64,000 nt of DNA. It comes from Sycon ciliatum (taxonomy: Eukaryota; Porifera; Calcarea; Leucosolenida; Sycettidae). The stretch covers positions 7,951,985-8,015,984 of the forward strand of contig NC_088649.1 of assembly GCF_964019385.1 (NCBI RefSeq). Reading direction: 5' to 3'. Below are positions 1,399-46,020 of the stretch, in pieces. Under the pieces are notes generated by a model. The model searched no databases. It had not been told where the DNA came from and saw only the letters and a list, made by a program, of their open reading frames with translations. Both the position numbers and the translations under genes were made by a program. The first letter of the stretch is position 1. The number at the start of each line of letters is the position of its first letter.

Positions 1399-1857
1399 CA
1401 TATTGACTGACTGACTGACCATAATAATATTGACTGACTGACCATATATTGACATCATACCGGTACTTGTATATATAATTATACTGACGACAGTACTGAC
1501 GGGACCCGTAGAATGAAGTGCCGAAAAGCAGCCAGGATATAAATTCACCAAGCCCAGCATAACAAAGTAGACACAGTGAATCAACTGTGCATGGAATGTA
1601 GTACATAGATATAGGAATACTCGAGGAAAGGAGACTGACCCAACACCAGCCCTTCGGCAACCCACGGTTGTGACGAATGTATGTCCTGACTATGCATCGA
1701 CAAACTCTTCTCAAAATCCTCCGTTGTTCCGAATATTCATGCCCAGATCCTTCAGGGAGTTGTGTTTCAATGCGTTTGTGTGTGGGTATGTGTGTGTGTG
1801 AATATGTGTGTGTATGTGCATGTGTATGGGTGTATAATATGTGCTTGTGTTCTCAAT

Positions 1858-1903
1858 CTGCGGACAGCATGCTGTTTCGTTCTTTTTGAACTCATCAGCG
1901 CAG
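1858..1903 (-). ncRNA. Type I hammerhead ribozyme (array 1, monomer 1)
   Basis: 5' to 3' on the minus strand: stem I CUGCG, core CUGAUGA, stem II GUUC-AAAAA-GAAC, core GAAA, stem III CAGC-AU-GCUG, then UC and the closing stem I strand CGCAG. The GUC triplet is cleaved after C, i.e. between 1862 and 1863 on the + strand numbering. All conserved core bases are present. Confidence 0.92.
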
Positions 1904-2085
1904 CACAGAGGAAATGAGGCTGAACCTGATAGCAATGGAAATAAAAATTTCCAATCAGGCCCGAACGTACCTTGCCAGAGTGCTTAAACTGACAAGTCAG
2001 TGAGCTCTGCCTAACGCAAACAGCAAAGGCACTTCCCCACGCAAGAGTGCTCAACTGCTACAAGAGCAGGAGCGAAATACTCAAT

Positions 2086-2131
2086 CTGCGGACAGCATGC
2101 TGTTTCGTTCTTTTTGAACTCATCAGCGCAG
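2086..2131 (-). ncRNA. Type I hammerhead ribozyme (array 1, monomer 2)
   Basis: Identical core, stems and AAAAA stem-II loop to monomer 1. Cleavage expected between 2090 and 2091. Together with monomer 1 it defines a complete 228-nt excised RNA. Confidence 0.92.
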
Positions 2132-2313
2132 CACAGAGGAAATGGGGCTGAACCTGATAGCAATGGAAATAAAAATTTCCAATCAGGCCCGAACGTACCT
2201 TGCCAGAGTGCTCAAACTGACAAGTCAGTGAGCTCTGCATAACGCAAACAGCAAAGGCACTACCCCACGCAAGAGTGCTCAACTGCTACAAGAGCAGGAG
2301 CGAAATACTCAAT

Positions 2314-2359
2314 CTGCGGACAGCATGCTGTTTCGTTCTTTTTGAACTCATCAGCGCAG
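2314..2359 (-). ncRNA. Type I hammerhead ribozyme (array 1, partial monomer 3)
   Basis: The ribozyme core is complete although the monomer is cut off by the target duplication 23 bp further on. A two-base deletion lies just outside stem I (cagcagagg instead of cagcacagagg), so extended stem I contacts may differ. Confidence 0.88.
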
Positions 2360-2487
2360 CAGAGGAAATGAGGCCGAACCTGATATGTGCTTGTGTATGT
2401 GTGTGTGTATGTGTGTATGTACGTTTATGTGTGGTTTTGTGTGAATTTGTGTCTGCATGTTTTTTGGTGATATTCCTTTGCTTGCAG

Positions 2488-5400
2488 CAGAACGCAGTTC
2501 ATCCGGTGTGCAAGACTCTCGTCGCCATGACAGGCCACAGGCATGCTACGTTAAGCCAGGCTCGCAGATTTCGTCTAAAAGTGCAGTCGACGATTCCGAA
2601 ACTGTACATTGCACTATGCCTCGCTCCATGCGTCACAGAGGCCGGTCAAACACAGTGACGTCACCGCCTGCAAGGCAGCAGGGTCAATACTCAGGTCCTT
2701 TACCGGTAGGGGCACATGCAGATTAGAAAGAACAAGAAATAATATAGAGTGCATGGCCTCACTGGCACATATACACACGCTTGAATGCAGGCACACTTAC
2801 ACGCATACATGGACACACACACACACGAGTACACGTAGGTGACTGTACAGTTTTTGCAATGGCATGATGCGCTGCTTCGTAAAGTATGTTTTTTTGTTTT
2901 CTTTCTAGGCACTTCCCAAGGCCGATGTTCCATGTCACGTCACGTTTAATTTCCCGTCCAAGTTTCTTGGCTACCTCATAACGTGCAACGAGATGACCAG
3001 AATCAATGCCATGGCCATGCGTCACAACGTGCGTGTCCAGATATTGCAGCCATCAGCGGCGACACAAGGGCGGGGGGATAAGTCCAACGGTCCATCTCTC
3101 TCGCTGACTGGGCAGTTCGATGACGTTGTTCAGGTGCGAGAAGGCCTTGAACAGCTTTGCGCGGAGACACAGCAACGCACAATCCCATTCCATATGATGC
3201 AGGATGAACTTCTAACAATGGTGTTTGAAATGCTACGAACTGTCGATTCTTTGAAAGTAGGTTCATACCGGCTAAACGTAGTCCCCTCCCACTTGCAGAG
3301 CATAAGGTTTTGTAGTATTGAACAAGTATATGGAAGAAGTATTGAGACAAGAGAGTAGACAAGAACGAAGACTAGAGACTAGAGAACCACTGGAGCATTG
3401 CGTTCTTCTACACTTTATGGACTCTCATTGCTAAGGTGAAGGAGCGTGAAATACGAATAGTGAGTTCAGAGTCTTTTTTCAACTACACCTGTTACGAAAA
3501 CACTGTATGATCCTTTCCCTGCACGGATATAAATCCAAAATAGTGCTAACTTGAAACTAGGTAGGAGGTAGAAAATATAACTTAAATGTATTGTCTGCGA
3601 AGGCATTTAAGGAAGAACGCACCACCAGCCAGTTAGGACAAGTCTCAAGTACTTAAACATTTTTCGTTCCCTTCCTCTCAAAATACTACACGGAATGATG
3701 GAGATAACTAATAGACTTGTCCTAATAGGTTGGTGGTCCGTTCTTGTGTAGACGCATACAATTTAGTAGTTCCAACTTTATAATGTGTTAAGTGAAAATG
3801 CAATCCGTGTCCTGAAATTAGGACAGCATGCTGACCTCAAAGACAAACGTGAAGGCTATGTCATCGCAGAATTTAAATAACAGACGAATATGGGTATATT
3901 TCTGCGAAAATTGTTTCAGACGATATACCAGTAGTCTCGTTTTTCCTCTCTAAACCCCGCACAGTAAACATAGGTTTTTCGCGGTACGGTTTATGCCACA
4001 CTGGTGACAGCAAAGGTGGTAAATGGGATAGATGTCTGTATTTCGTGACAGGGTGGCTTATACTCTAGTACCGCTTATGATCTGGGAAATGCAATATTTC
4101 CTTGGGTGACCTGTAATTCCTTTTGTTTGTATCGTTGTGCAATAGTTGTACAAGGCGGCTGCAGCGGCTTCAGGGAAGAAAGCCGTGCTTTCCAGTGACT
4201 ATGCAGTGCCTGCAGAGTGGGAACCACAGGATACACAGCTGGAACTGAAAGAGGTGAGTAGGGAATCTGACGTGCTCAGGGTGACGGGTTAAACGGAAAT
4301 ATAGAGTGGTTTCACGTATTTTTATCACATGCCTCAATTTGCACGGAAAGTGATATCGTCAAGTGAACAGTTGAACTAACATGGCCGACATCATGTGACC
4401 TGTTGACGCAAGGTGTGAGTGGGATTGGAACCAATATGGCTGCCTAGTATGGTCATGCGATAGGATATGAAACCACTCTATTAAGATTAGAGATTTTCGG
4501 AACATGCATGATGTAATTGAAGTAGAAAGACAGTGTTGCTTTTGACTCGTTGGTAGGATTTCTTTTGCCCATACTGTACGTGTAGGGTCATCATCATGCT
4601 ATTACCAGTATTGGTGCCAAACTGATGATGAGTGCCCTTTGCTCATACACTACATGCATGGCACGCAAAGGGATTACTAGTAACGAGTTTCATGTTAGTA
4701 ACCAATGCGCAATATTATATTCGGATATGTTTTTCCTCTAAATTAATTTTTCAGCACACAAATAATTTATTCTTGCCTTAATACAGGTGAATTCAAGTGG
4801 AGATGAATATCATCTAGTCCAAACACTTCTGCACCAATCCCTACCATCAGCTCGCATTCATCATGTGGAGCGTATTCAGAACAAGTTCCTGTGGACGCGA
4901 TATTGCCAAACAAGGGAGATGCTGAGACAGAAGAACGGAAAGGCTGTAGAAGACAAGCCTCTGTTTCACGGCACACGAACCACAGCTCCAGAAAAGGTAG
5001 GGGGTATTTAACATGGTTTGCCTAAGCATTATTTTAAGCAACTGATTCTCTACATACGTCACAGTAAACTGGACCTCGTACACCGCAGCTGCCTTGATTT
5101 TGTGTTCACTTCCAGCAACTGAAACTTAAACAATGAATTTTCAGCGCACTGTACCTTCGAGAAAGGACGGAAGTATAACTACGTGTATAGCCAAGGTACT
5201 GCAAAGCAAAGTTGTTGGTATGATCGGAAATTGCTTAACTCGTGAAGAGTAGCCTACATCACAAGTTCACAATGACGGGACATTTTTGTCAAACGGAGCA
5301 TCGCTTTCAGTAACATTGTGAACTTGTGTAGGTGAGGCACTGTATATCCGATATCAAGTTACTGGATATCCTATTAGTGTAGTATGTAGGTGCGTGGGTG

Positions 5401-8400
5401 GCAAAGTAGCTAGACCACAGGCCTTCCAAACTTGAGGTTGTGAGTTCACTTCTCAACTTGAGTGAAGATTTCAGGAGACCAATCTCGGATTTGATAAGTA
5501 ACTCTGGATAGGGAGGAAAAGACGACCTGGGTGAGGATATAAGCATCTCCGGCACTGTGGAGCTTTGTGAAACGGGAGGCCTCTAACACTGTTTGTTCCT
5601 AAGATCAAAATTGACTATGGTTTATCTTTACATGTGCATTTTACCCTAGTGTAGTATGCGGACCGAAAAGTTTGTAGGGGAATTTGCACTGCTCTTTCAG
5701 CGTAAGTGCTTCTTACAGTTTATAGCAGCCTTTGGCTGGTGAGCTGAGATGCATCACCTGAAAGCCAAGCAACACTAACAATTTTTCACTGTCATTCACT
5801 TCACCTTTAAAGCTCAACTTTAGCTGCCTCAATGAAAGTTACTGGATTTTCTAGGAATCGTGATGAACAATCAACTAAATGATCTAAATGAAGGAAAGTA
5901 ACTTAAGAGAGCATGTCTGAGAAAACCAGAAACGCTATGTTGGGGAATCTCTCCGATTTCGCTCAAATTTGCAAGTAGGTCTTTCCCTTTCTATGTTACT
6001 GTCTCTATCTGATCTCTGACTCTCGTGCACACAACTACACACATGCAAGCTTACACGCACACATACACACACATTCACACACACACACGAACACGCACAC
6101 ACACACCTACACGCATGGTTTTGATTCTAATCTTGATTGTCGATCAACTCGATCAAATCCGTCCATCTGCAATGTCACGTGGTGGTTGGCGCACGGCCAG
6201 TTTCAAGACGCAAAAAATATCGTGCTTCGATTGCAAAAATCGAGATTTTTCAATAATTTTTGCACTTCTGCAGAGCTTTGCTGCTAGTGAAATTCGAGTC
6301 GTTCAGGGAAGGAAATGGTTGCTGTTTGGAGTGACAAGGGTTGTCAGTTCAAATTTCTTGTCAGACTCGGCAGAGGTAACCACGCTGCAGTGTTTGGCGT
6401 GCTCGCGTCTGGAGCGGTGCCTGGTGTTGGAGCTTGAGGAGGCGCTTTCAGTCGTGGGGTACGAAATTGGCAGTGTTGCAATGTGGCGAAGTGAAAATAT
6501 TCAAATTTGTTTATTCCCAGAAAACGTTGAACACCTTTCACGATACATGTTCTGGGTGGTGGTGGAGATTCGAGTCCTGCAGTGCATGGTTCACAATAAT
6601 AGACGTCGTAAATTGTTCCCGCTATGGCCCTTGAAATTGGGCTATTTTAGCGATGCAATTTAGTGATATTTGGAGATGATAGTCATTGGTTTCCTGGATG
6701 TAGCCATGGCTCTATGTGGTGGTGATGTGAAGACTACTCAGGTGAGGTAATGTTGGCATGGTGGTTGTTTGTTCTCAGCTCAATCGTGTACGCTGTACGA
6801 GCGCTCGTTTTGGACCCAATATTCAGTCGTATTTTGGGCCCATTTCGAGGTGGTCTCCAGTTTCAAGGTGTCCGTCAGTTATGCAACGAGTCCTTTTCCA
6901 TGGTTGTTGAAGACCACAAAGGAGACTTACTTAAAAACTTTGAGCGAAATCGGAGAGATGGCCCAGCTTTTCTTTTTCTTTTACAGCTTGAAACAAAATT
7001 AGTGGCAGGAGTGAGGCTTCTTCCAGCTTCATTTGGGAAAAAGGTTCCAGAACAGATCTGAAACCATTTTACATCGAAACCAAATTATCAGAAAATAATA
7101 TCTGAGCTTAAAACTGAATACTCTTACCGAGTGGTTTTCACGGTTCGCCTGAGACTAGGCTGGAATATGCCTGTAATACTTTGCCTGCCCGAGTTCCATT
7201 TACTTCTCCATTCATTACCAATCACTCAATGTCCAGATTTCTACAGACTAATTATCATTCACTCTTTTTGTACTGCAGATATTCAAGAGTGAAGTCGGAT
7301 TTGACATGCGATTCTCGGCCAAGGGAATTTGGGGAGAAGCGAACTATTTTGCTACTGAGGCCAATTATTCTAACGCCTTCGCCCATAATCTGCCTGATGG
7401 CAAGAAGCAAGTATTTCTTGCTCAGGTAAGGGATTTGATTGTGCGTTTATATGCGTGTGTTATTGTGTGTCTGCGTATGTGTGTTTGTATGTGCGTATGC
7501 CTTCATGTGCATATGCGTTTGGGTATGTGTTGTACATTGCGTTCCTTTTGATCTGTCCGCATGGCAAGCTGGTTCAACATCTCCGTACAGTAGACATATA
7601 TCTATGGCATCAAGAAGCCCTAGGTGTAATCACATGATGATCAACAAATTAGCTTCACTGTCTGTAGTAGGTTTTGTCTAGCTAGGAGGAGCACAACAAC
7701 GATCTGTTTTAATTGAGGCAGAGCGACTGCACCGCCCTTGAGTGGAGAGAAATCACGTGCACACACCAGCAGTTCAGTTTCTCAAGTTTGTGAAGCTCTT
7801 GCCATCATTCACCGATTGTCTCTTCTCTCTATCTTCGATGTGTAGCACAGTAACCAGTCTTAATTAATTACTGTAAACGGCTATTTTCGCTCCACATATA
7901 CCGGCATACACATACACATAGACAGCAATAGCGTCAACACACGAAGTGAAGGGTAGTTGGCCGCTGCGAGAAATACAACATTTCAGCGCTGGCGATATTG
8001 TAGCGATTTTAATGAAAGGAGTGGTTTCGCCACTGTTTTGCCGCGGCAATCGAAATTTTGCAAGTAGTGAAGTAGAGTTAAGTATAAGTCAGCATTTTTA
8101 AACCTAAAATCTTTCATCACAAACTGGTTCTGATTCAGAAAACGCTTAACATTTTACCAGCTACAATTAGCCATCCTTCAGGTATGTTTTGTTATATTTT
8201 CCCCCTTTTTGTCTCTGCCCGCCCAGGTCCTTATCGGCGACAGTGTTCAGTTGAAAAAAGACAGGACTCTCCGTGTACCCCCTCTCAAACCAGCAGAGTA
8301 CTCAGCTTCCTTTGGTAAGCACTTCGTTTATCAGTTTACTACTCATACCAAAACGTCTTTCCAGTTCAGATCTCTTTCTAAGTTATCTATCAATATCATT

Positions 8401-24463: not shown

Positions 24464-25325
24464 ATTAGAGAGGTTAAGATGCACGTATTTCCGACGTGAC
24501 GCGCAATTTCACGTCAAATTTGGCGTAAAACTCCAAATTTCGACGTGAGCAGCAGGTCAATCGAGTTGATTTTTCGACGTGTGAGCAAATAACGCCTGAA
24601 CTTTCGCGTCACGTCAGAAACGAGAGAGCTTGGAAGCTCAGGGCCCTACGCTATGCTTTTTTGCCTTGATGACCTAGACAAAAAAAAAGCATAGGGATGT
24701 TATAAATTCTTTAAAAAATTCCTTTTTTTTAGACATAACCTGGGATTCGAACCCGCACTATCGCGCGCCCTGCATTCATCCCCCGATGCACTTCGCATAC
24801 GTACTAATTCTTCCAAGTTGTTTCACATTGTGATCTTGCATTTGAAAGCCCTATTTGAGTTATATGCATTGTGGCCAGCCGTCTTTGATGGCACGGTACG
24901 GTAGGGGATAGGGACGGGACAGGTACGATCGAGGGTAATACGACACCGTCTCCCGTACCGTACCGTACCATCAAACACAGCTGGCCACATACAGCTTCCC
25001 GCAATATTCAAATAGGGCTTTCAAACGCAAGATAATAACGTAACGCAACTTGGAAGAATGGGTATGAATGCGAAGTGTATGGGGGAATGCATGTAGGGCG
25101 ATAGTGCGGGTTCGAATCCCAGGATATGCCTGAAAAAAAGGAGAATTGAAAAATTTATAACATCCTATGCTTTTTTGCCGTCAGATACGGATAGCGCCAG
25201 GCGTGACACAAACAAACACACAAACAAACACCAAATTAAAGCTGTGTGGACCCTGGCTAGCGCCAGACGTTACTGAAGTAACGTCTTCTGCATAGCTACG
25301 GGAATAACGTGCATCTTAACCTCTC
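24464..25325. mobile_element. TIR element with GAGAGGTTAAGATGCACGT ends
   Basis: Left end gagaggttaagatgcacgt at 24465-24483 and its complement ending at about 25322. A further copy of the right end lies at 25420-25440. No coding capacity. Target duplication not certain. Inside it sits the left arm of the larger foldback. Confidence 0.55.
24735..24760 (-). repeat. tRNA B-box-like word in repeat
   Basis: GGTTCGAATCC is present on the minus strand (ggattcgaacc on +). Same word on + at 25108-25118 and 26773-26783, and decayed at 26489. It matches the Pol III B-box consensus, but no convincing A box or tRNA fold was found, so at most an SINE-like component. Confidence 0.4.
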
Positions 25326-25329
25326 CATT

Positions 25330-25396
25330 ATACATGAGATAGCCGTGAATGCTTTACCCAATCATTGGGTAAAGCATTCACGGCTATCTCATGTAT
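25330..25396. repeat. Perfect palindrome, 33-bp arms
   Basis: Every base from 25330 to 25396 pairs about the single central C at 25363 (acccaat C attgggt at the centre). Would extrude as a cruciform or fold as a hairpin. Repeated 115 bp downstream. Confidence 0.92.
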
Positions 25397-25444
25397 CTCG
25401 TAAGTTATCACGTCAGAAATAACGTGCATCTTAACCTCTCCATT

Positions 25445-25511
25445 ATACATGAGATAGCCGTGAATGCTTTACCCAATCATTGGGTAAAGCATTCACGGCT
25501 ATCTCATGTAT
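25445..25511. repeat. Second identical palindrome, 115 bp further on
   Basis: Exact repeat of the 67-bp palindrome with its flanks (cgtcagaaataacgtgcatc, cttaacctctccatt). One arm (ggctatctcatgtatctcgt) is the sequence present once in copy A at 14860-14885 as a diverged form, so the palindrome is an inverted duplication of segmental-duplication sequence. Confidence 0.92.
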
Positions 25512-25711
25512 CTCGTAAGTTAGTCTTTTGTTTCGTGCATATTTGAGGATGCCAGCTGTAATTGTATGTTGCGGTCACGGATGTAGATTATAGTGTTGCA
25601 GGGGCGACATAGACCAAGGGAATCTTGTTGATTTCTATGATACATAACATCTCCATATCCATCTGATTTATACCGTATCATTCCCGTAGCTATGCAGAAG
25701 TCGTTACTTCA

Positions 25712-31110: not shown

Positions 31111-32418
31111 GATTCCAGAGTTGGGTGGTATAGGAGGAGTGTATACCTCGCCATGTATAGCCGCACCGCCAATGCCGTCTGTTCGCCCAGTGGGAAGTTT
31201 GCCAACTTTAGGACTTCCTTCGGAAACCTTCTTCCCCAAAGAACCTGCTCATGAAACTGTGTAAGTCGGAACAAAATGATTGATCTGTCAATATTATTTT
31301 TCTAATTGACAACACTGTACATTATATTGATATGTTGAATGTTTTTGTTCGTTTTTTGGAAACGGCTGTAGGACATTGATGCTGCTAAGTTCCACTTTGG
31401 TGCTAGATGTTAAGTCGTTGAGGGTCTGTCTGCCGTGTCAATGTCCAGTGAATCGTGTAATTTAGGAATACCTATTTGTTTTAAGTTCTAGCCAGTTGTA
31501 TCCCGTGGTCTTTCAACGTGCATAAGAATACAAGATGCATAACAGTGCGCTCAGAGTCCTTTGAAATGTACCAATACCTGTACCGTTGCGTACACTTGTT
31601 TTGTTCTACAGCGGTACTCAGATCAGCGATCAGCAGAAAGAACATTGGACCCAATTTGTATCCAATGATGTTGATATGTGTTGGAGCCAAGAAAAAATTG
31701 AAGAGTTGTGCATCTACCTCAACGAAGACCCTCCGGCCGCATCATCTAGTACCAACCAGGACCAAGAAACACGTAGTCGTTCCGCAGAGATTGCGACTAA
31801 CATAGCCAAATGGGATATCTCCAATGCTAAGATTGCTGCTGCAACAACGCACCAGGGAGCCGTGACATCATCAACAATCAAATATATACATACAAACTCT
31901 GACCAAGAAGAGCCGAGGGAAGCAACGTCTGGAATATCTAGTATGATAAGAGACGGAGGTGAGTCATCTTCTACGGGTTGTGGAAACCTTTGTCGAGTGA
32001 CGCCTGGACAACAACGGCTGAAATCGACAGCGATTGCATCTTTCGCTGGCATTCCGTTCGGTCGTGTGGGAATTTCGGAGAGGCAAAGAAAAAATCCGTG
32101 TCAGGAAGGGGATGGAAACGAGAGTCAAGTAGAACCTGGGCATGATATCAGACATCAATCCGCAGGATCTCCGGCTCCGACTACGGTTTCTGAGCAAGAG
32201 AAGGGTTTTATGTATAGAGGTTATGCGAAAGGATCACGTGCAGGCGGCGTGTAGGCGGCCAAAGCGGCCGCGCTCCGCAGGGGTGGCAAAAGAGATGAAA
32301 AGTTCAAAAGAAGTACATGTGCCTGGAATAATTTCACGAAGGAAATTTCCTGTATCGCTGTTACGTTCCTCTTCTGTTCTTTACAAAGGACTATTGTACG
32401 AACGCTGAATCAGTGGCC

Positions 32419-34260
32419 ATGACTTCTCCCAAGTTTTCAAAAGTGTATGACGAGTTAGATGACTCCAGCAAATGCCGGTACCGTGAAAAGCTCGAGCGCG
32501 TTGCACCAGACTCGAGTGATCCTTACCTGCCCAGAAGTATTTTTTTAGGGGAAGATAAATTTCCACTTGTGGACTATCCCGATATTTACAATTTCTTGGT
32601 CAACGCGCCCAGCCCCTACACCAAGGAGCAGCTCAAGGCCTACAAGAGCTTGGAAGGCTACAAATACCTTGTCAGTGGCTGGGTCGGCGATGTTCGTGCG
32701 TTTCCAGCGTCTGAATCTGACACATGTGACAGCAAGTTTGTCATCGCCAAAGTCCGCCATTCCCAGTCAGTTTCCGGCACCCATCTGCAACCCTGGATTG
32801 CTGCGCAAAACGACGGTAGCGTGATTTGTGCACACTGCACCTGCATGGCTGGTCTTGGTGAGTCTTGTTCTCACGTTGCTGCACTGTTGTTCAGCCTGTA
32901 TTCTAGAACGCAGCTGATTCAGAACACAGGAAGCACTTCATTGCCGTGCCAATGGTCAACTCCTTCAATGAAGGAGGTGGAGTATGCCAGGATTCGTGAC
33001 ATAAACTTCACTGCACCCGACACTAAACAGCATGGGAGCAAGCGCCGTAGGTCGGAGGAGAAGGTCCCTGCTGATATTAAGCAACCCTCCAGTGCTGAGC
33101 TGGGTGAACTATATGGAAATTTATGTCAAGCCGGTAAACCGTCATTACTCTCCCTTGTTCCCGGGTTCTGCGATAGGTACGTACCTTCCAAGCCCGAGGG
33201 ATATCCACCCATTTTGGATTTATTGTACGAACCAGACATGCTGGATGCTAGTTTTGGGGACCTGCTCGTTCGTTGCGAGGCAGTATTTCCAGCGGTCTGT
33301 GTTTCAGAGGAGGAAGCACGCGCTGTGGAACAGGCTACGCGGAACCAGGCAGATTCCAAGGCCTGGTTTGAATTTCGCGCCGGCCGGATCACAGCTTCAA
33401 AGTTGAAGTCTGCTGTTCGCACGGATATTAGCCAGCCCTCTGCGTCCTTAGTCCGCTCTGTGTGTTACCCTGAGGCACACAAGTTTCGTAGCAAAGCCAC
33501 ACAATGGGGATGTGATCACGAGCAGAAGGCAATTGACAACTATAGTGAACATGCCAGTGCAACACATCAGAAGGTTGAAGTACTGCCCAGTGGCTTTGTA
33601 ATTCATCCGGACTATCCATATCTTGGCGCTACTCCCGACTCCCTTGTGCAGTGCTCCTGCTGTGGCAACGGCGTGGTGGAAGTGAAGTGCCCGTACGGGT
33701 GCCGAGACAGTAGCCTGCATGATGCTGCCGATTCAGGGAAGTTCTGTCTAGTAAAGTCCGGCGGAGCACTCCATCTTAAGCAAGACCACATGTACTACTA
33801 CCAAGTACAGCTACAGATGCTGGTGTGTAAGGTGCAGTACTGTGACTTTGTTGTGTGGAATGAAGGTCAGCTGTTTGTGGAGCGTATCTGTGCAGACACA
33901 GATTTCATCCGTGAAGCGGTAGCAGGTGCCAAGAAATTCTTCCAGTGTGCTGTTCTCCCAGAGCTTGTTGGGAAATGGTTCACTAAGACGTTCTCCACTC
34001 TTCCTGCCGATGCGTCTTCAGCGGCTACATCAGCCTCGGAACCACTTGGTGCTGCCAGTACAACATCTACTGCGGATCAAGAACGCCCTCCGGAGTTTTG
34101 CTACTGCAAGTCTGTGAAGGCTGGCGAGGTACTGCGATGTTCCAACAACGATTGCAGTATTCGTTTGTTCCACATGGCTTGTTTGCAGCTGAAGAGTAAG
34201 CCAAAGCGCAAGAACTGGACCTGCCCGGAGTGTCGCAAGATTAAATCTGCCACTAAATAA
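32419..34260 (+). CDS. SWIM-YqaJ nuclease-PHD protein of the transposon
   Basis: 613 residues from the first ATG after an in-frame TGA (32407-32409). Order: N-terminal region; SWIM zinc finger at about 140-152 (C140, C142, C150, H152 in CTCMAGLGESCSH); basic stretch KRRRSEEK; YqaJ/lambda-exonuclease-type nuclease about 300-510 with AWFEFRAGRITASKLK, LGATPDSLV (D407), VVEVKCPY (E421, K423) and the YYYQVQLQM helix; C-terminal PHD-type zinc finger about 561-606 (FCYCKSV ... WTCPECRK). The D-ExK metal-binding set of this nuclease fold is complete. Probably helps process DNA ends during transposition; the PHD suggests chromatin contact (inference). Intronless, tail-to-tail with the transposase. 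Confidence 0.92.
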   Translation: MTSPKFSKVYDELDDSSKCRYREKLERVAPDSSDPYLPRSIFLGEDKFPLVDYPDIYNFLVNAPSPYTKEQLKAYKSLEGYKYLVSGWVGDVRAFPASESDTCDSKFVIAKVRHSQSVSGTHLQPWIAAQNDGSVICAHCTCMAGLGESCSHVAALLFSLYSRTQLIQNTGSTSLPCQWSTPSMKEVEYARIRDINFTAPDTKQHGSKRRRSEEKVPADIKQPSSAELGELYGNLCQAGKPSLLSLVPGFCDRYVPSKPEGYPPILDLLYEPDMLDASFGDLLVRCEAVFPAVCVSEEEARAVEQATRNQADSKAWFEFRAGRITASKLKSAVRTDISQPSASLVRSVCYPEAHKFRSKATQWGCDHEQKAIDNYSEHASATHQKVEVLPSGFVIHPDYPYLGATPDSLVQCSCCGNGVVEVKCPYGCRDSSLHDAADSGKFCLVKSGGALHLKQDHMYYYQVQLQMLVCKVQYCDFVVWNEGQLFVERICADTDFIREAVAGAKKFFQCAVLPELVGKWFTKTFSTLPADASSAATSASEPLGAASTTSTADQERPPEFCYCKSVKAGEVLRCSNNDCSIRLFHMACLQLKSKPKRKNWTCPECRKIKSATK

Positions 34261-35398: not shown

Positions 35399-36856
35399 TT
35401 ACTCGAAAGGTACGACGGACTCACAACAGTTGCACAGAGCACAGCAGACGGTGACAACCTTGTCAATGAATGCACATGATGTAGCTTTATCGTCATGCAT
35501 GAGGAAAGCAATGGGCAAAGTGCCAGAGAGGATCGTGTATTTCTGGCGAAGCATTCCAATCACTCGCTCCACATGGATACGGACGCGTGACACTTGTCGA
35601 GCACTGTCCAATTTCAGCCTGGAGAGTTGCTTCTTCCCCTTCGTAAATGGGGGCATCACCAACTCTGCGCAGAACATGCCAACGCTGTCTTCAACAGTGA
35701 AACCACGGTCAGCCAGCACCTGGTCACCCGGATTTAGGTGACTAAGCAGACCGCAGTGCTCTGTGATGAACTTGTCTGAGGCTCTCCCGCCCCATGCATG
35801 CGAAATAAATGTAATGACACCTTGTGGCGCTACGCCAATCAAAAACTTTGCAGTGTTATGGCTTTTATAGTGAGAGTACGTTTGAGCTCTTGCCATCAGA
35901 TCAGAAGGTCGTTCACAAAAAACTTCAAAGCAGTCAATAATGACAGCACAGCCCGGGAAATGCTTACGAAATTCAAGTGGCAGAGTTTTGCGTAGTTCGT
36001 CTCTTTCCGGCCATTTGACAAGTGGTCCCAGCATCACATGCATCACCCGGATCCAGCGCTGGAAAATCCGGCACACGGTCGACTGGTGAATGCCGAATCT
36101 GTACGCCAAGTCTTGGTCCCGACAATTCAGCCGAAGCTTCATGAGAACAATCAAGAACTGCTGGAAGAGAGAGAGCGTGTGGCGGTGGTGCTGTGGAACT
36201 CTCTTCCTCACGTGTTCAAATATGCCCATCATGGTCCCAAAAGACTGCAAACCAGTGTAGAAGAGCACCTTCGCGTTGTCTTTCTCAAACGACTCGATTG
36301 ACAAGGTGTCACCTTGTCCTGGAGCGTGTGGCATCCGTTTGCTTTCCAGGACCAAACAGTTGTTTGTCTCCTCCAGCCGCGTCAAGTGCTCCATATCCAT
36401 GTCAGTCTGCGATGAGACACTGGAGACTGCTACAGGATCAGACTCTACCTCTGCACCATAGGCACCAGGCAAATCTGCCATTGCCTCTGTGAAGTCATTC
36501 CCGGAGGCGTCCACTTTCACTGGTGTCTGCGTCTTGCTCTCCTCGAACGTCAGCTTCCGCTTCGCTCGGCGTTCATATGCCACCAAATCCCTCTCCGCTT
36601 TACGCTTTACAGGAGTCCTGACATGTTCAAAAAGTTTCGGAACGTAAGCGGGAGATAGTGGATCGTTGCTCTTCTCTGCGCCTACGAAATGGTCTGAACA
36701 GATCCTGCTACTGTAAGTTGGCTTCCAATTCTCTCGTCTCATAGCCGCAACCCATAGTTTGCGCCGCTCGTCCGCTACAGGAAACTTGTAAAACTTCACA
36801 GCCGTTCCAGGATCGGCACGATTGCTACATCCGACGGCTGCACAACTCTTCGGCAT
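35399..36856 (-). CDS. THAP domain DDE transposase (PIF/Harbinger lineage)
   Basis: 485 residues from ATG 36856. THAP DNA-binding domain at 1-76: [10 protein letters not shown] start, zinc ligands C5, C10, C53, H56 (CSDH), conserved P26, W35, F57 and the closing YVPKLF. A linker with basic patches follows, then a DDE_Tnp_4-type domain: helix-turn-helix-like [28 protein letters not shown] (D308), a [12 protein letters not shown] strand, VLADRGF (D383) and [11 protein letters not shown] (E430), C-terminal MHDDKA region. The acidic triad is complete and the frame unbroken. Cuts and joins DNA at the transposon ends, with THAP probably reading the terminal repeats (family knowledge). An upstream in-frame GTG exists but the THAP start fixes the ATG. 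Confidence 0.95.
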
Positions 36857-37799
36857 GTTGAAGGCTAAAAACTTCAGCAAGCGAGACACCAGCGGAAATC
36901 AAAATAAAAGTGAGGAACGATATGTCGACAACCAACAACAAATTTTACTTTTCCTCTCAAAGACTAGTAAAAAATAGTTCAAGCAGAAACGACTTCATTT
37001 TGCCACCCCTGCCACTCGCAGCCGCCTTGGCGCTCCTCGTGACGTCATTCGCATAACCTCTATAAAACGGTGCACAAGTGTCATCATTGTCCGAAAGAGT
37101 TTTCTAGAGCATCTAAACTTCGTGGGAATGAACGGGTTCATTCCGGAGAACGACCATTCAAGTGTAATGTATGCAACAAATTATTCTCTCAGTCAGGACA
37201 TTTACGAGCGCACCTACGTATCCATACGGGAGAGAAACCATTCACGTGCAAGGTTTGTCACGCAACATTCACGCATTCATCAACTCTACGTCGTAACGAG
37301 AGTACACACTCAGGGAAAAGGCCTTACAAATGCGAGACATGTGACGCATCGTTCAAGTCAGCTTGCAACCTACGCACACACTGTATCGCTCATAGAGGAG
37401 CAAGTCGCGTACATCGAATTGCAACAGACCAAGTAATCGACCTGAGCAAAAACGTGAATATACAAGAAAAAGGTCGTTCCGGGAACTCCCAACGTCTTTT
37501 CCTCATGCCCGAACTCGTACAGAAGACAAACTCCATACATGTATTGTGCTCAAACATCTAGTACTAACATTCATTTCATGAGCATGTGTTTACACATACA
37601 GGTGTGCTTGCAAGCAGTCCTATATTTCCGTGAATACCTTACCCTTAGAATCATTGACTCCACACAAACACATTCATAATAATCCCGACCAGACATTGAC
37701 TATTTTACTCCGCTTGTGTATATCTGCTTGTTTGTTATGACATACAACATCACACCTTTCTCTATAGCAAGAGCCCGTTTTTTTTACCGTCGTGCTACA

Positions 37800-39430: not shown

Positions 39431-39450
39431 TATTCCAAGTATTACTCAAT

Positions 39451-39496
39451 CTGCGGACAGCATGCTGTTTCGTTCTTTTTGAACTCATCAGCGCAG
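39451..39496 (-). ncRNA. Type I hammerhead ribozyme (array 2, monomer 1)
   Basis: CUGCG, CUGAUGA, GUUC-AAAAA-GAAC, GAAA, CAGC-AU-GCUG, UC, CGCAG. Cleavage between 39455 and 39456 (+ numbering). Confidence 0.93.
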
Positions 39497-39678
39497 CACA
39501 GAGGAAATGAGGCCGAACCTGATAGCAATGGAAATAAAAATTTCCAATCAGGCCCGAACGTACCTTGCCAGAGTGCTCAAACTGACAAGTCAGTGAGCTC
39601 TGCATAACGCAAACAGCAAAGGCACTACCCCACGCAAGAGTGCTCAACTGCTACAAGAGCAGGAGCGAAATACTCAAT

Positions 39679-39724
39679 CTGCGGACAGCATGCTGTTTCG
39701 TTCTTTTCGAACTCATCAGCGCAG
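39679..39724 (-). ncRNA. Type I hammerhead ribozyme (array 2, monomer 2)
   Basis: As monomer 1 but stem-II loop GAAAA. Confidence 0.93.
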
Positions 39725-39906
39725 CACAGAGGAAATGAGGCCGAACCTGATAGCAATGGAAATAAAAATTTCCAATCAGGCCCGAACGTACCTTGCCAGA
39801 GTGCTCAAACTGACAAGTCAGTGAGCTCTGCATAACGCAAACAGCAAAGGCACTACCCCACGCAAGAGTGCTCAACTGCTACAAGAGCAGGAGCGAAATA
39901 CTCAAT

Positions 39907-39952
39907 CTGCGGACAGCATGCTGTTTCGTTCTTTTTGAACTCATCAGCGCAG
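39907..39952 (-). ncRNA. Type I hammerhead ribozyme (array 2, monomer 3)
   Basis: Stem-II loop AAAAA; all core bases intact. Confidence 0.93.
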
Positions 39953-40134
39953 CACAGAGGAAATGAGGCCGAACCTGATAGCAATGGAAATAAAAATTTC
40001 CAATCAGGCCCGAACGTACCTTGCCAGAGTGCTCAAACTGACAAGTCAGTGAGCTCTGCATAACGCAAACAGCAAAGGCACTACCCCACGCAAGAGTGCT
40101 CAACTGCTACAAGAGCAGGAGCGAAATACTCAAT

Positions 40135-40180
40135 CTGCGGACAGCATGCTGTTTCGTTCTTTTCGAACTCATCAGCGCAG
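40135..40180 (-). ncRNA. Type I hammerhead ribozyme (array 2, monomer 4)
   Basis: Stem-II loop GAAAA; core intact. The monomer also has cccacgtaag for cccacgcaag outside the ribozyme. Confidence 0.93.
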
Positions 40181-40362
40181 CACAGAGGAAATGAGGCCGA
40201 ACCTGATAGCAATGGAAATAAAAATTTCCAATCAGGCCCGAACGTACCTTGCCAGAGTGCTCAAACTGACAAGTCAGTGAGCTCTGCATAACGCAAACAG
40301 CAAAGGCACTACCCCACGTAAGAGTGCTCAACTGCTACAAGAGCAGGAGCGAAATACTCAAT

Positions 40363-40408
40363 CTGCGGACAGCATGCTGTTTCGTTCTTTTTGAACTCAT
40401 CAGCGCAG
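40363..40408 (-). ncRNA. Type I hammerhead ribozyme (array 2, monomer 5)
   Basis: Stem-II loop AAAAA; core intact. Confidence 0.93.
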
Positions 40409-40590
40409 CACAGAGGAAATGAGGCCGAACCTGATAGCAATGGAAATAAAAATTTCCAATCAGGCCGGAACGTACCTTGCCAGAGTGCTCAAACTGACAA
40501 GTCAGTGAGCTCTGCATAACGCAAACAGCAAAGGCACTACCCCACGCAAGAGTGCTCAACTGCTACAAGAGCAGGAGCGAAATACTCAAT

Positions 40591-40636
40591 CTGCGGACAG
40601 CATGCTGTTTCGTTCTTTTTGAACTCATCAGCGCAG
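40591..40636 (-). ncRNA. Type I hammerhead ribozyme (array 2, partial monomer 6)
   Basis: Stem-II loop AAAAA; core intact. On the minus strand this is the 5'-most unit, in a truncated monomer. Confidence 0.92.
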
Positions 40637-40867
40637 CACAGAGGAAATGAGGCCGAACCTGATAGCAATGGAAATAAAAATTTCCAATCAGGCCCGAACG
40701 TACCTTGCCAGAGTGCTCAAACTGACTCAAACTATTCCAAGTATTACGTAGCTGGGGTAGTCAATGACCACTTTGCGTGGCGGTTGAAGGGATATATTTT
40801 GTTGCTCCCCTATAGCGTGCAGATTAACTGTTTGAATGCAATGACTTCTGACACTAAAGAAAATTTA

Positions 40868-41110
40868 ATTCCCGTAGCTATGCAGAAGACGTTACTTCAG
40901 TAACGTCTGGCGCTATAGCCAGGGTCCACACAGCTTTAATTTGGTATTTGTGTGTTTGTTTGTTTGTGTCACGCCTGGCGCTATCCCGTATCTGTCCCGT
41001 ACTGTACCGTGCCAGCAAAGACAGCTGGCCACAATATTTTTGTTTGTTTGTGCCATCAACATGCCTGGCGCTATCCCGTACCTGTCCCGTACCATCAACA
41101 GTACGGTACC
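40868..41110 (-). repeat. Dispersed repeat G, reverse copy
   Basis: cgttacttcagtaacg and ccagggtccacacagcttta are the complement of 10190-10345. The gcctggcgctatcccgta word occurs twice (40974, 41063), each near tgtttgtttgtg. The uninterrupted palindrome here proves the MITE insertion site at 25.7 kb. Confidence 0.7.
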
Positions 41111-44606: not shown

Positions 44607-46020
44607 GCCACATGACAGCCAACCAAATCATATTGGACGTCTAAAGTGACATGTGAAAATCGCCAAATGCACAAGAAAAATACATCAGCAACTCACAAGT
44701 CAGCGACGGTAGGTGAAACGAAAGGCTGGCAGGGTGTGGTGTATATGTGCGAATTGACCAACAGTGATTTGCCAATGAGTTTTGTCCATCCAGATCATCA
44801 CTTCAGGGCGAGCGTCTACCACTTGGATCCTTGAAGTAAATTTTATCCCATAGTACGTAGGAAACCATGGATTCAGCCAATCAGCAGCCGTTGTCTCCGG
44901 GGAATAAAGCAGTTCATCGGCGCAGTCCATACATATCCTCCGTGCCAATTTCAGATTTGTTGGTCCCAGAGAAATTATATATATATTCGATGATGTCATC
45001 TTAAATGGTCAGAGGATTCATAGTATTACTGGGTTCGTGTCTCGTCGTGACGAGAACACACCACACTTTCGAACATTTTTTCAACAATGTTTGATAGAAA
45101 GTATCCAGGTACTTTGCGATTACGAAATGCTAAAATGGCAATCGTCATCAAGTAAATCATCATCATAATAAGCTGGTATGGCTACCATTTACAATCACTT
45201 CAAATAGTTAGCGTCTGGGGTGAGACTGGGAAAAGTCACCTACAGGTTTGTGGGTTTACATCTGGGCATCGTGCAGAGAATAAAAATAGCTGCACTCTAT
45301 TTTTTTGAGTGACGATGACCCACACCTTGATCTAGAGAGCGGAACTAGGAACGTTCAGTGTCAGCCGTGTGATGTTGGGAGACGGACCGGTATAGCGCGC
45401 GAAGTACTAGAATATCTTCGTTGATCTCTGTTTGGCTGAGGTGTAGAGCAAATCTTTGCTAAATTGGCCCTTCCATTTGAATACCCATTAGCGTGCCAGG
45501 TAGGCACGATCTTGTATACCCTGTAATTCAGTTGACCAGGATCAGGTTTACTACACGTCGATATTAATTTTGTAGTGCTGCACAGTTTAAGTGATGCAAT
45601 TGAACATCACTGAAGTATTACCACGATACTGCGTGACAAACTGACTTCCTCCTTGCCTACTCTTGTGCCGAGCCAGTGCTACATACTGGGGTCTGTGCAG
45701 TGTAGTTGACCTTACAAGAAAGAAAAAATATAGCACAATACTGGTACTGGAAATGCATATCCATGTTCACACTATGAGAAGGTACACGATCGTGCAGTAC
45801 AATGTCACAATGAGACTGGCGAAATACCACTATTACACTCTCTTACCATAACTTCGATGATTGTTACTGTTTCTGCTGAGATGTTACACCATCAACAACG
45901 GGGTGATACAATCTTCAACACTACGCGGCCAAATAAGAATTTTGAGACAGTGCTCATTATTTTCTGAAATTAGTTGAGTATTGACGTTTCTATTTTCAAG
46001 TCCGTGTGTTCATCAGCCAA
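44607..46020. other. No gene recognised
   Basis: Unique-looking, AT-rich sequence. Apart from the short frame at 44646-44834 nothing repeats elsewhere in the window and no family is recognised. Confidence 0.5.

Follow-up and report, generated by a model that had tools for sequence, protein, structure and literature searches.

Two arrays of a hammerhead-bearing repeat

The window (the whole analysed stretch of 64,000 nt of the Sycon ciliatum genome) contains two tandem arrays of a 228-nt monomer, each unit with a hammerhead ribozyme. The initial annotation had described a single array of six minus-strand hammerheads, one per 228-bp monomer; in this array (array B) 6/6 type I cores are intact. 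A second array (array A) is present at 1852–2385, with three hammerheads and 3/3 intact cores. For array B, Tandem Repeats Finder reported a period of 228, 5.6 copies and 99% matches at 39443–40726. The features are as follows.

39445..40732, RNA strand minus: retrozyme array B, 5.6 monomers of 228 nt
40727–40732: 5′ filler, inside array B
39431..39444, plus: target-site duplication of array B on the RNA 3′ side, TATTCCAAGTATTA read on the plus strand
40733..40746, plus: target-site duplication of array B on the RNA 5′ side, second copy of the TATTCCAAGTATTA duplication
39456..39491, minus: hammerhead 1 of array B, 3′-terminal, CUGAUGA..GAAA..GUC
between 39456 and 39455, minus: expected cut of hammerhead 1, placed from the known motif
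39684..39719, minus: hammerhead 2 of array B, loop II GAAAA
39912..39947, minus: hammerhead 3 of array B, found by pattern and structural scan
40140..40175, minus: hammerhead 4 of array B, loop II GAAAA
40368..40403, minus: hammerhead 5 of array B, found by pattern and structural scan
40596..40631, minus: hammerhead 6 of array B, in the 5′-truncated unit; HH9 model row at 40576–40646
39445..39455, minus: CGCAGAUUGAG, the 11 nt from the cut to the putative start of reverse transcription (first copied base probably 39445)
39642..39666, minus: hairpin GCUC..GAGC followed by ACUCU, 3′ of the start site on the predicted circle, function putative
39575..39598, minus: second hairpin GCUC..GAGC followed by ACUCU, function putative
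1852..2385, minus: retrozyme array A, 2.35 monomers, 3′ end as in array B
1837..1850, plus: target-site duplication of array A on the RNA 3′ side, ATATGTGCTTGTGT; 1851 is one extra base
2383..2396, plus: target-site duplication of array A on the RNA 5′ side, second copy of the ATATGTGCTTGTGT duplication
1863..1898, minus: hammerhead of array A, 3′-terminal, found by pattern and structural scan
2091..2126, minus: second hammerhead of array A, found by pattern and structural scan
2319..2354, minus: third hammerhead of array A, found by pattern and structural scan

The last bases of array A overlap its target duplication. Among the open reading frames of the window, none of at least 120 aa lies inside array A or B, so neither array codes for a reverse transcriptase or a GIY-YIG nuclease; plus-strand frames 2221–2658 and 40520–40903 run over an array edge and minus-strand frame 1382–1852 touches one. 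The GC content of the monomer is 48.2%. Its circular fold (−73.6) has 68% of bases paired vs 64% in shuffles (z −2.3), with a similar value for the complement strand (z −2.1). Each monomer holds two hairpins that read GCUC..stem..UU-GAGC, with ACUCU behind each, and similar ones are seen in both divergent cousins of L025; these hairpins are possibly a protein-binding element.

Other features of the window include a 642-aa frame (32332–34260, plus) with a YqaJ-like nuclease and a weak PHD finger match, a 499-aa frame (35399–36898, minus) with THAP and DDE_Tnp_4 domains, i.e. a DNA transposase, and, at 25303–25522, 1.9 perfect copies of a 115-bp unit that itself looks like an inverted repeat.

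Evidence for the ribozyme

All hammerhead elements named by the initial annotation are present in the array units; two stems can be drawn more exactly. Stem III is short and self-complementary, as described, but the proposed CAGC/GCUG pairing would leave a 2-nt loop; pairs A-U, C-G, A-U and G-C with a palindromic CAUG loop are better. Stem I is present and continues beyond an internal loop into an outer stem, CUC/GAG. Cutting as a dimer, suggested earlier on the strength of the short stem III, is possible (a cofold pairs a 12-nt palindrome) but not required, stem III being longer than in those axolotl ribozymes that are reported, in the parts of the source covered, to cut well only as dimers (PMC7229834).

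The pattern CTGATGA..GAAA..GTC has 10 matches in the window: six in array B, all on the minus strand (39456–40631), three at 1863–2354 and one, unrelated-looking, at 45983–46016; the mean over 100 shuffles was 0.38 and the maximum 2. In 11 sequences picked for holding the repeat (115,310 bases), a structural scan found 53 complete type I hammerheads; once these sequences were reversed it found none.

The best-matching Rfam models were RF02275 (Hammerhead_HH9) and RF00163 (Hammerhead_1). The window copies score below gathering: at this threshold 0 matches were found in the window, while with relaxed cut-offs RF02275 matched all six hammerheads of array B at 26.7–29.1 bits (gathering value 52). 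For RF00163, 21 matches were reported in the rest of the genome and 4 of them pass the cut-off of 34, in a scoring that covered 74 of 76,236 first-look candidates. Poor covariance-model scores had been named earlier as one outcome that would speak against a ribozyme; the curated Rfam thresholds were indeed missed, yet covariation is seen when 12 copies are aligned, including two distant cousins (60% and 64% identical over the unit). In this alignment 191 of 192 cells pair and four pairs are changed on both sides; neither its pairing nor its covariation score was reached in 500 shuffles. Two of the five measures used were weak, since the doubly changed pairs were reached by 5/500 shuffles and the number of pair types by 176/500. 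Slid controls pair at 27–52%, a control that flatters the result, as the structure was drawn from the same sequences. One cousin, C3y, has one core residue changed, and its ribozyme is presumably dead.

No match to the exact ribozyme pattern was found in viral contigs. The centre of L038 and of L045 is occupied by another family of hammerheads, whose stem III palindrome is ACAGCUGU and whose end, ..ATTGAG, is the same.

Copies in the genome and their ends

In the genome (538 Mb, 313 contigs) the 30-base end of the ribozyme had 2440 matches at up to three mismatches and 0 when read backwards. Copies recovered by a whole-unit query (13 candidates scored) sit on C1, C2, C3, C7, C8, C10 and C13. 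The shortest has 35 bp and the longest about 1600 bp (seven units, in C7), apart from a rearranged C10 array of 1782. The C10 arrays sit in duplicated flanks and were rearranged later; for this reason we dropped them as separate insertions, though the sample of 5′ ends described below still includes them.

Some copies are broken or embedded in other sequence. The array in L057 (2046–4293) is interrupted by an insert with inverted-looking ends, CAGGGGCGTC..GACGCCCCTG, and TGCGTGG on both sides; this insert is perhaps a DNA transposon. In L024, pieces of the retrozyme body of 43–49 nt, not including the ribozyme, lie on the minus strand at 3454–3496, 6468–6516 and 7887–7935 within a different, locally duplicated repeat.

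Most insertions end, on the RNA strand, at ...GUC|CGCAGAUUGAG, 11 nt beyond the cut, and this 3′ end coincides with the edge of the hammerhead outer stem CUC/GAG. Two samples of 3′ ends were drawn without presupposing that end. Among solitary copies of less than one unit, obtained with the whole-unit query, 5/5 include it (L014–L017, L019). Among arrays of more than one unit on C1, taken from the first 20 exact-match clusters in list order, 10/11 end at the GAG position; here L057, with its insert, was counted as one array, and L058, which has one substitution, was counted. The 30-base pattern behind the latter sample presupposes the ribozyme, but any array longer than one lap holds it wherever the array ends. 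In the L026–L046 set GAG was reached in 19 of the 21 printed groups (L038 and L045 gave no group); L027 stops inside and then resumes, and L046 has a copy that ends, at about position 1550, exactly at the ribozyme cut, beside an AGAT microsatellite. Further exceptions are L059, which runs about 26 nt past GAG, and C2b, where one arm ends at unit position 100. One further junction tally took in 21 junctions.

The 5′ ends are scattered. For 16 copies, four of them the C10 arrays later judged not independent, uniformity on the circle was not rejected (Rayleigh p about 0.38).

Two loci have retrozyme arrays joined 5′-to-5′. One is L023 (3306–5233); the other is L044 (993–1777, with the ribozyme turned to the plus strand), which has GAG at both outer ends and no duplication, as if both target strands had served as primers.

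Target-site duplications and an empty site

Both window arrays are flanked by 14-bp target duplications. A wider sample was made up of 33 insertions ending at GAG (12 earlier loci and 21 from C1), from which 13 with microsatellite targets were dropped; it omits the C10 arrays, the inverted arm of C2b, the two L025 cousins, the first half of L057, L059 and all of L026–L046. In this sample 12 of 20 insertions outside microsatellites have duplications of 8–14 bp, against 0/380 in swapped-flank controls, and in 8/20 there is no duplication of 8 bp. For C7 we saw a paralogous empty site that holds TGTTGTCATAA once. Evidence of mobility, which the initial annotation did not have, comes from the duplications and 5′ truncations as well as from the empty site.

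The base after GAG is T in 30 of the 33 insertions and the next one is A in 29 of 33. By a strict count 7/12 duplications begin with TA, a dinucleotide with a frequency of 0.057 in the window, which makes a generous null because the targets are AT-rich. One could speculate that TA follows GAG owing to primer–template pairing, the circle continuing UAU. An endonuclease preference is as good an explanation, since targets of Penelope-like elements also often start with TA though their template seems to continue differently.

Variants within and between arrays

Nineteen arrays with at least two full units were compared; 53 variants occurred in all units of an array, 6 in some units and 52 were private. 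Two-unit arrays cannot show variants of the ‘some’ type; in the nine arrays with at least three full units, 18 variants were in all units and 6 in some. Many of the 53 all-unit variants are subfamily markers that recur in several arrays. The mean number of variant differences between units was 2.0 within arrays and 6.4 between arrays. Some arrays are uniform, most clearly C2c, with five full units, nine changes common to all and no private change, and C2a, also with five full units, one common change and no private change. Such uniformity is expected if one monomer is copied over several laps. Other arrays are mixed. In array B one loop II site reads A,G,A,G,A,A in successive units, counted from where copying would start, and in C10 two sites, positions 21/22, alternate; a single monomer circle would not produce such patterns, which could come from dimeric circles, uncut multimers or exchange at a later stage. 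In C7, variants are common to adjacent units. A193G is a recurrent variant, and A-to-I editing was considered as its origin.

The position of the 3′ end limits what the template could be. A linear monomer that had cut itself would have the start of copying 11 nt from its own 5′ end and so could yield only 11 nt; given the long inserts, the template would be either a circle closed by ligation or a multimer left uncut, and copying would extend over as many as about seven units.

Penelope-like elements and LINEs

A search of the genome for GIY-YIG domains gave 13 matches, and 10 of the 12 fetched loci were Penelope-like by peptide comparison. L077 and L078 have frames of about 600 aa within the fetched stretch; homologues of the L078 frame carry RVT_1 and other Penelope-associated domains. 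A motif scan found minimal hammerheads 3′ of Penelope-like frames, one form having 394 matches in the genome. Neither the Rfam hammerhead search nor a stricter structural scan found any in the 12 GIY-YIG loci; Rfam misses the Penelope hammerheads because they apparently have no normal stem III.

Ten Penelope-like loci, picked out of 123 and 394 pattern matches for having ends close together, were inspected for target duplications, and 8/10 have duplications of 9–13 bp; swapped-flank controls were applied to the retrozyme duplications alone. The two loci with no duplication are L101, whose left end is outside the stretch, and L108. Read by eye, the first bases of the duplications are TA in five, TT in two and CA in one (for retrozymes, TA in 7/12); L107 was counted as TA after a G common to the element. 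Any AT-preferring endonuclease may give such TA starts. Pairs in inverted orientation, joined 5′ to 5′, are found among retrozymes (C2b, L044) and Penelope-like elements alike. The 3′ ends of the Penelope-like elements vary by several bases and, by eye, have nothing in common with the retrozyme end.

Two RVT_1 frames lie in the window; one LINE ends in poly(A) and the other near AATAAA-like runs. The retrozyme junctions that we examined have no poly(A) tail, save for short A runs in C10c1 and L030.

In the parts of the lizard work covered, a Penelope element in vitro starts reverse transcription inside its own RNA, cuts AT-rich DNA and has both strands extended (PMC11167929). A resident Penelope-like element is the probable source of the mobilising enzyme.

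Proposed mechanism and alternatives

Observed are the motif with its covariation, the preference for one 3′ end, the scatter of 5′ ends, the target duplications, the empty site, and units that resemble each other more within an array than between arrays. Alongside these we set the following model: the repeat is probably a non-LTR retrozyme of a calcareous sponge, copied from RNA circles by the enzyme of a Penelope-like element. In the course of events that we infer, an array would be transcribed from the minus strand, the type I hammerhead of each unit would cut after GUC and ligation would close the 228-nt monomer into a circle. Nicked target DNA would then serve as primer for a reverse transcriptase, whose most likely source is one of the Penelope-like elements of this genome. 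Copying would begin at a single fixed position, which lies 11 nt beyond the ligated cut and borders the folded hammerhead on its 3′ side. The enzyme might complete less than one lap of the circle or as many as about seven, and could fall off anywhere. Each insertion would then be a tandem array whose 3′ end is constant and whose 5′ end varies, with a duplication of 8–14 bp that often begins with TA.

The mobilising enzyme could instead be the target-primed reverse transcriptase of a LINE. We regard this as unlikely: 8–14 bp duplications and 5′ truncation fit LINEs too, 15-bp duplications of Nematostella repeats have been likened to those of LINEs (PMC4918200, in the parts covered) and the window itself has two RVT_1 frames, but the LINE ends in the window, at poly(A) or near AATAAA-like runs, differ from the retrozyme junctions, and copying of the retrozyme starts inside the RNA. 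Nor does the template have to be a circle. If it were an uncut linear multimer, arrays being inherited as arrays, the alternating variants of array B and C10 would be accounted for, and for the lizard Penelope element unprocessed RNA is the main template, with ribozyme mutants still inserting (PMC11167929, in the parts covered); however, copying of arrays would carry mixed units along unless the sources were uniform, and with C2c and C2a in view we think a multimer rather improbable.

It is very hard to see these arrays as ordinary satellite DNA with a fossil hammerhead, whether it spread by unequal crossing-over or through DNA circles that reinserted. Tandem repetition, the later rearrangement in the duplicated C10 locus and the variants of adjacent units in C7 are what such a process would give. 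Against it stand the target duplications and the empty site, the preference for one 3′ end while 5′ ends scatter, and the existence of copies of less than one unit, as well as the 2440 genomic matches to the motif and the compensatory changes that the ribozyme shows.

Returning to copying from circles by a Penelope-type enzyme, one could tentatively go further and give the hammerhead a second job, a possibility that we hold more doubtful than true. Its folded outer stem would mark the start for a Penelope-type reverse transcriptase, the RNA would be copied only once it is circular, and an array would be a record of laps. On this reading copying needs a circle, because only through ligation of the cut ends would the start site come to share a template with the ribozyme and both downstream GCUC..GAGC hairpins.

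Comparison with known systems

The identification as a retrozyme, made in the initial annotation, agrees with the type I hammerheads, the dispersed short tandem monomers, the GC content of 48% and duplications of more than 4 bp; animal retrozymes are described as type I hammerheads in dispersed tandem monomers with duplications of more than 4 bp (PMC7229834, in the parts covered). Further likenesses to the metazoan non-LTR retrozymes described there are monomers of 150–450 bp, GC under 50%, no LTRs seen and coexisting Penelope-like elements. The host differs: calcareous sponges are a group not named in the parts of that paper covered. The same parts propose RNA circles and Penelope-like elements for animal retrozymes and hold no junction evidence; a fixed start of copying, arrays from a single template and 5′-to-5′ inverted pairs are likewise not in their description (PMC7229834).

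With Anolis Poseidon, as far as the parts covered describe it, the retrozyme shares AT-rich targets and tandem copies and probably also a start of reverse transcription inside the RNA and downstream of the hammerhead cut, with cutting and extension of both strands (PMC11167929). Unlike the retrozyme, Poseidon encodes its own protein, and cutting was seen only with protein added. Its cut is at +26 and its start at about +111 to +118 of the frame, i.e. 85–92 nt apart vs 11 in the retrozyme (PMC11167929).

Plant LTR retrozymes are also hammerhead repeats, expressed as circles (here, circles are predicted) and spread by retrotransposition; in the parts of the sources covered they differ in having type III hammerheads in LTRs, 4-bp duplications, a PBS and a PPT, and a length of 600–1000 bp (PMC4918200, PMC7761336). 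A plant LTR retrozyme was ruled out for the present element by its type I hammerhead and 8–14 bp duplications.

Literature searches for hammerhead ribozyme with Porifera, and for Sycon ciliatum with hammerhead, found no paper; the single paper returned for retrozyme with target-primed reverse transcription deals, going by the start of its abstract, with other elements. Within the literature searched, the calcareous sponge seems to be a new host group for retrozymes, and it joins the retrozyme hosts that we found named.

Two questions have been open for animal retrozymes: whether RNA circles do serve as template, and by which enzyme they are copied. A preferred start 11 nt past the cut, together with lap-like arrays, provides evidence at the genomic level that the template is circular or at any rate uncut. 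With the start site exactly placed, both the circle as template and the Penelope partner become directly testable, e.g. with purified Penelope protein.
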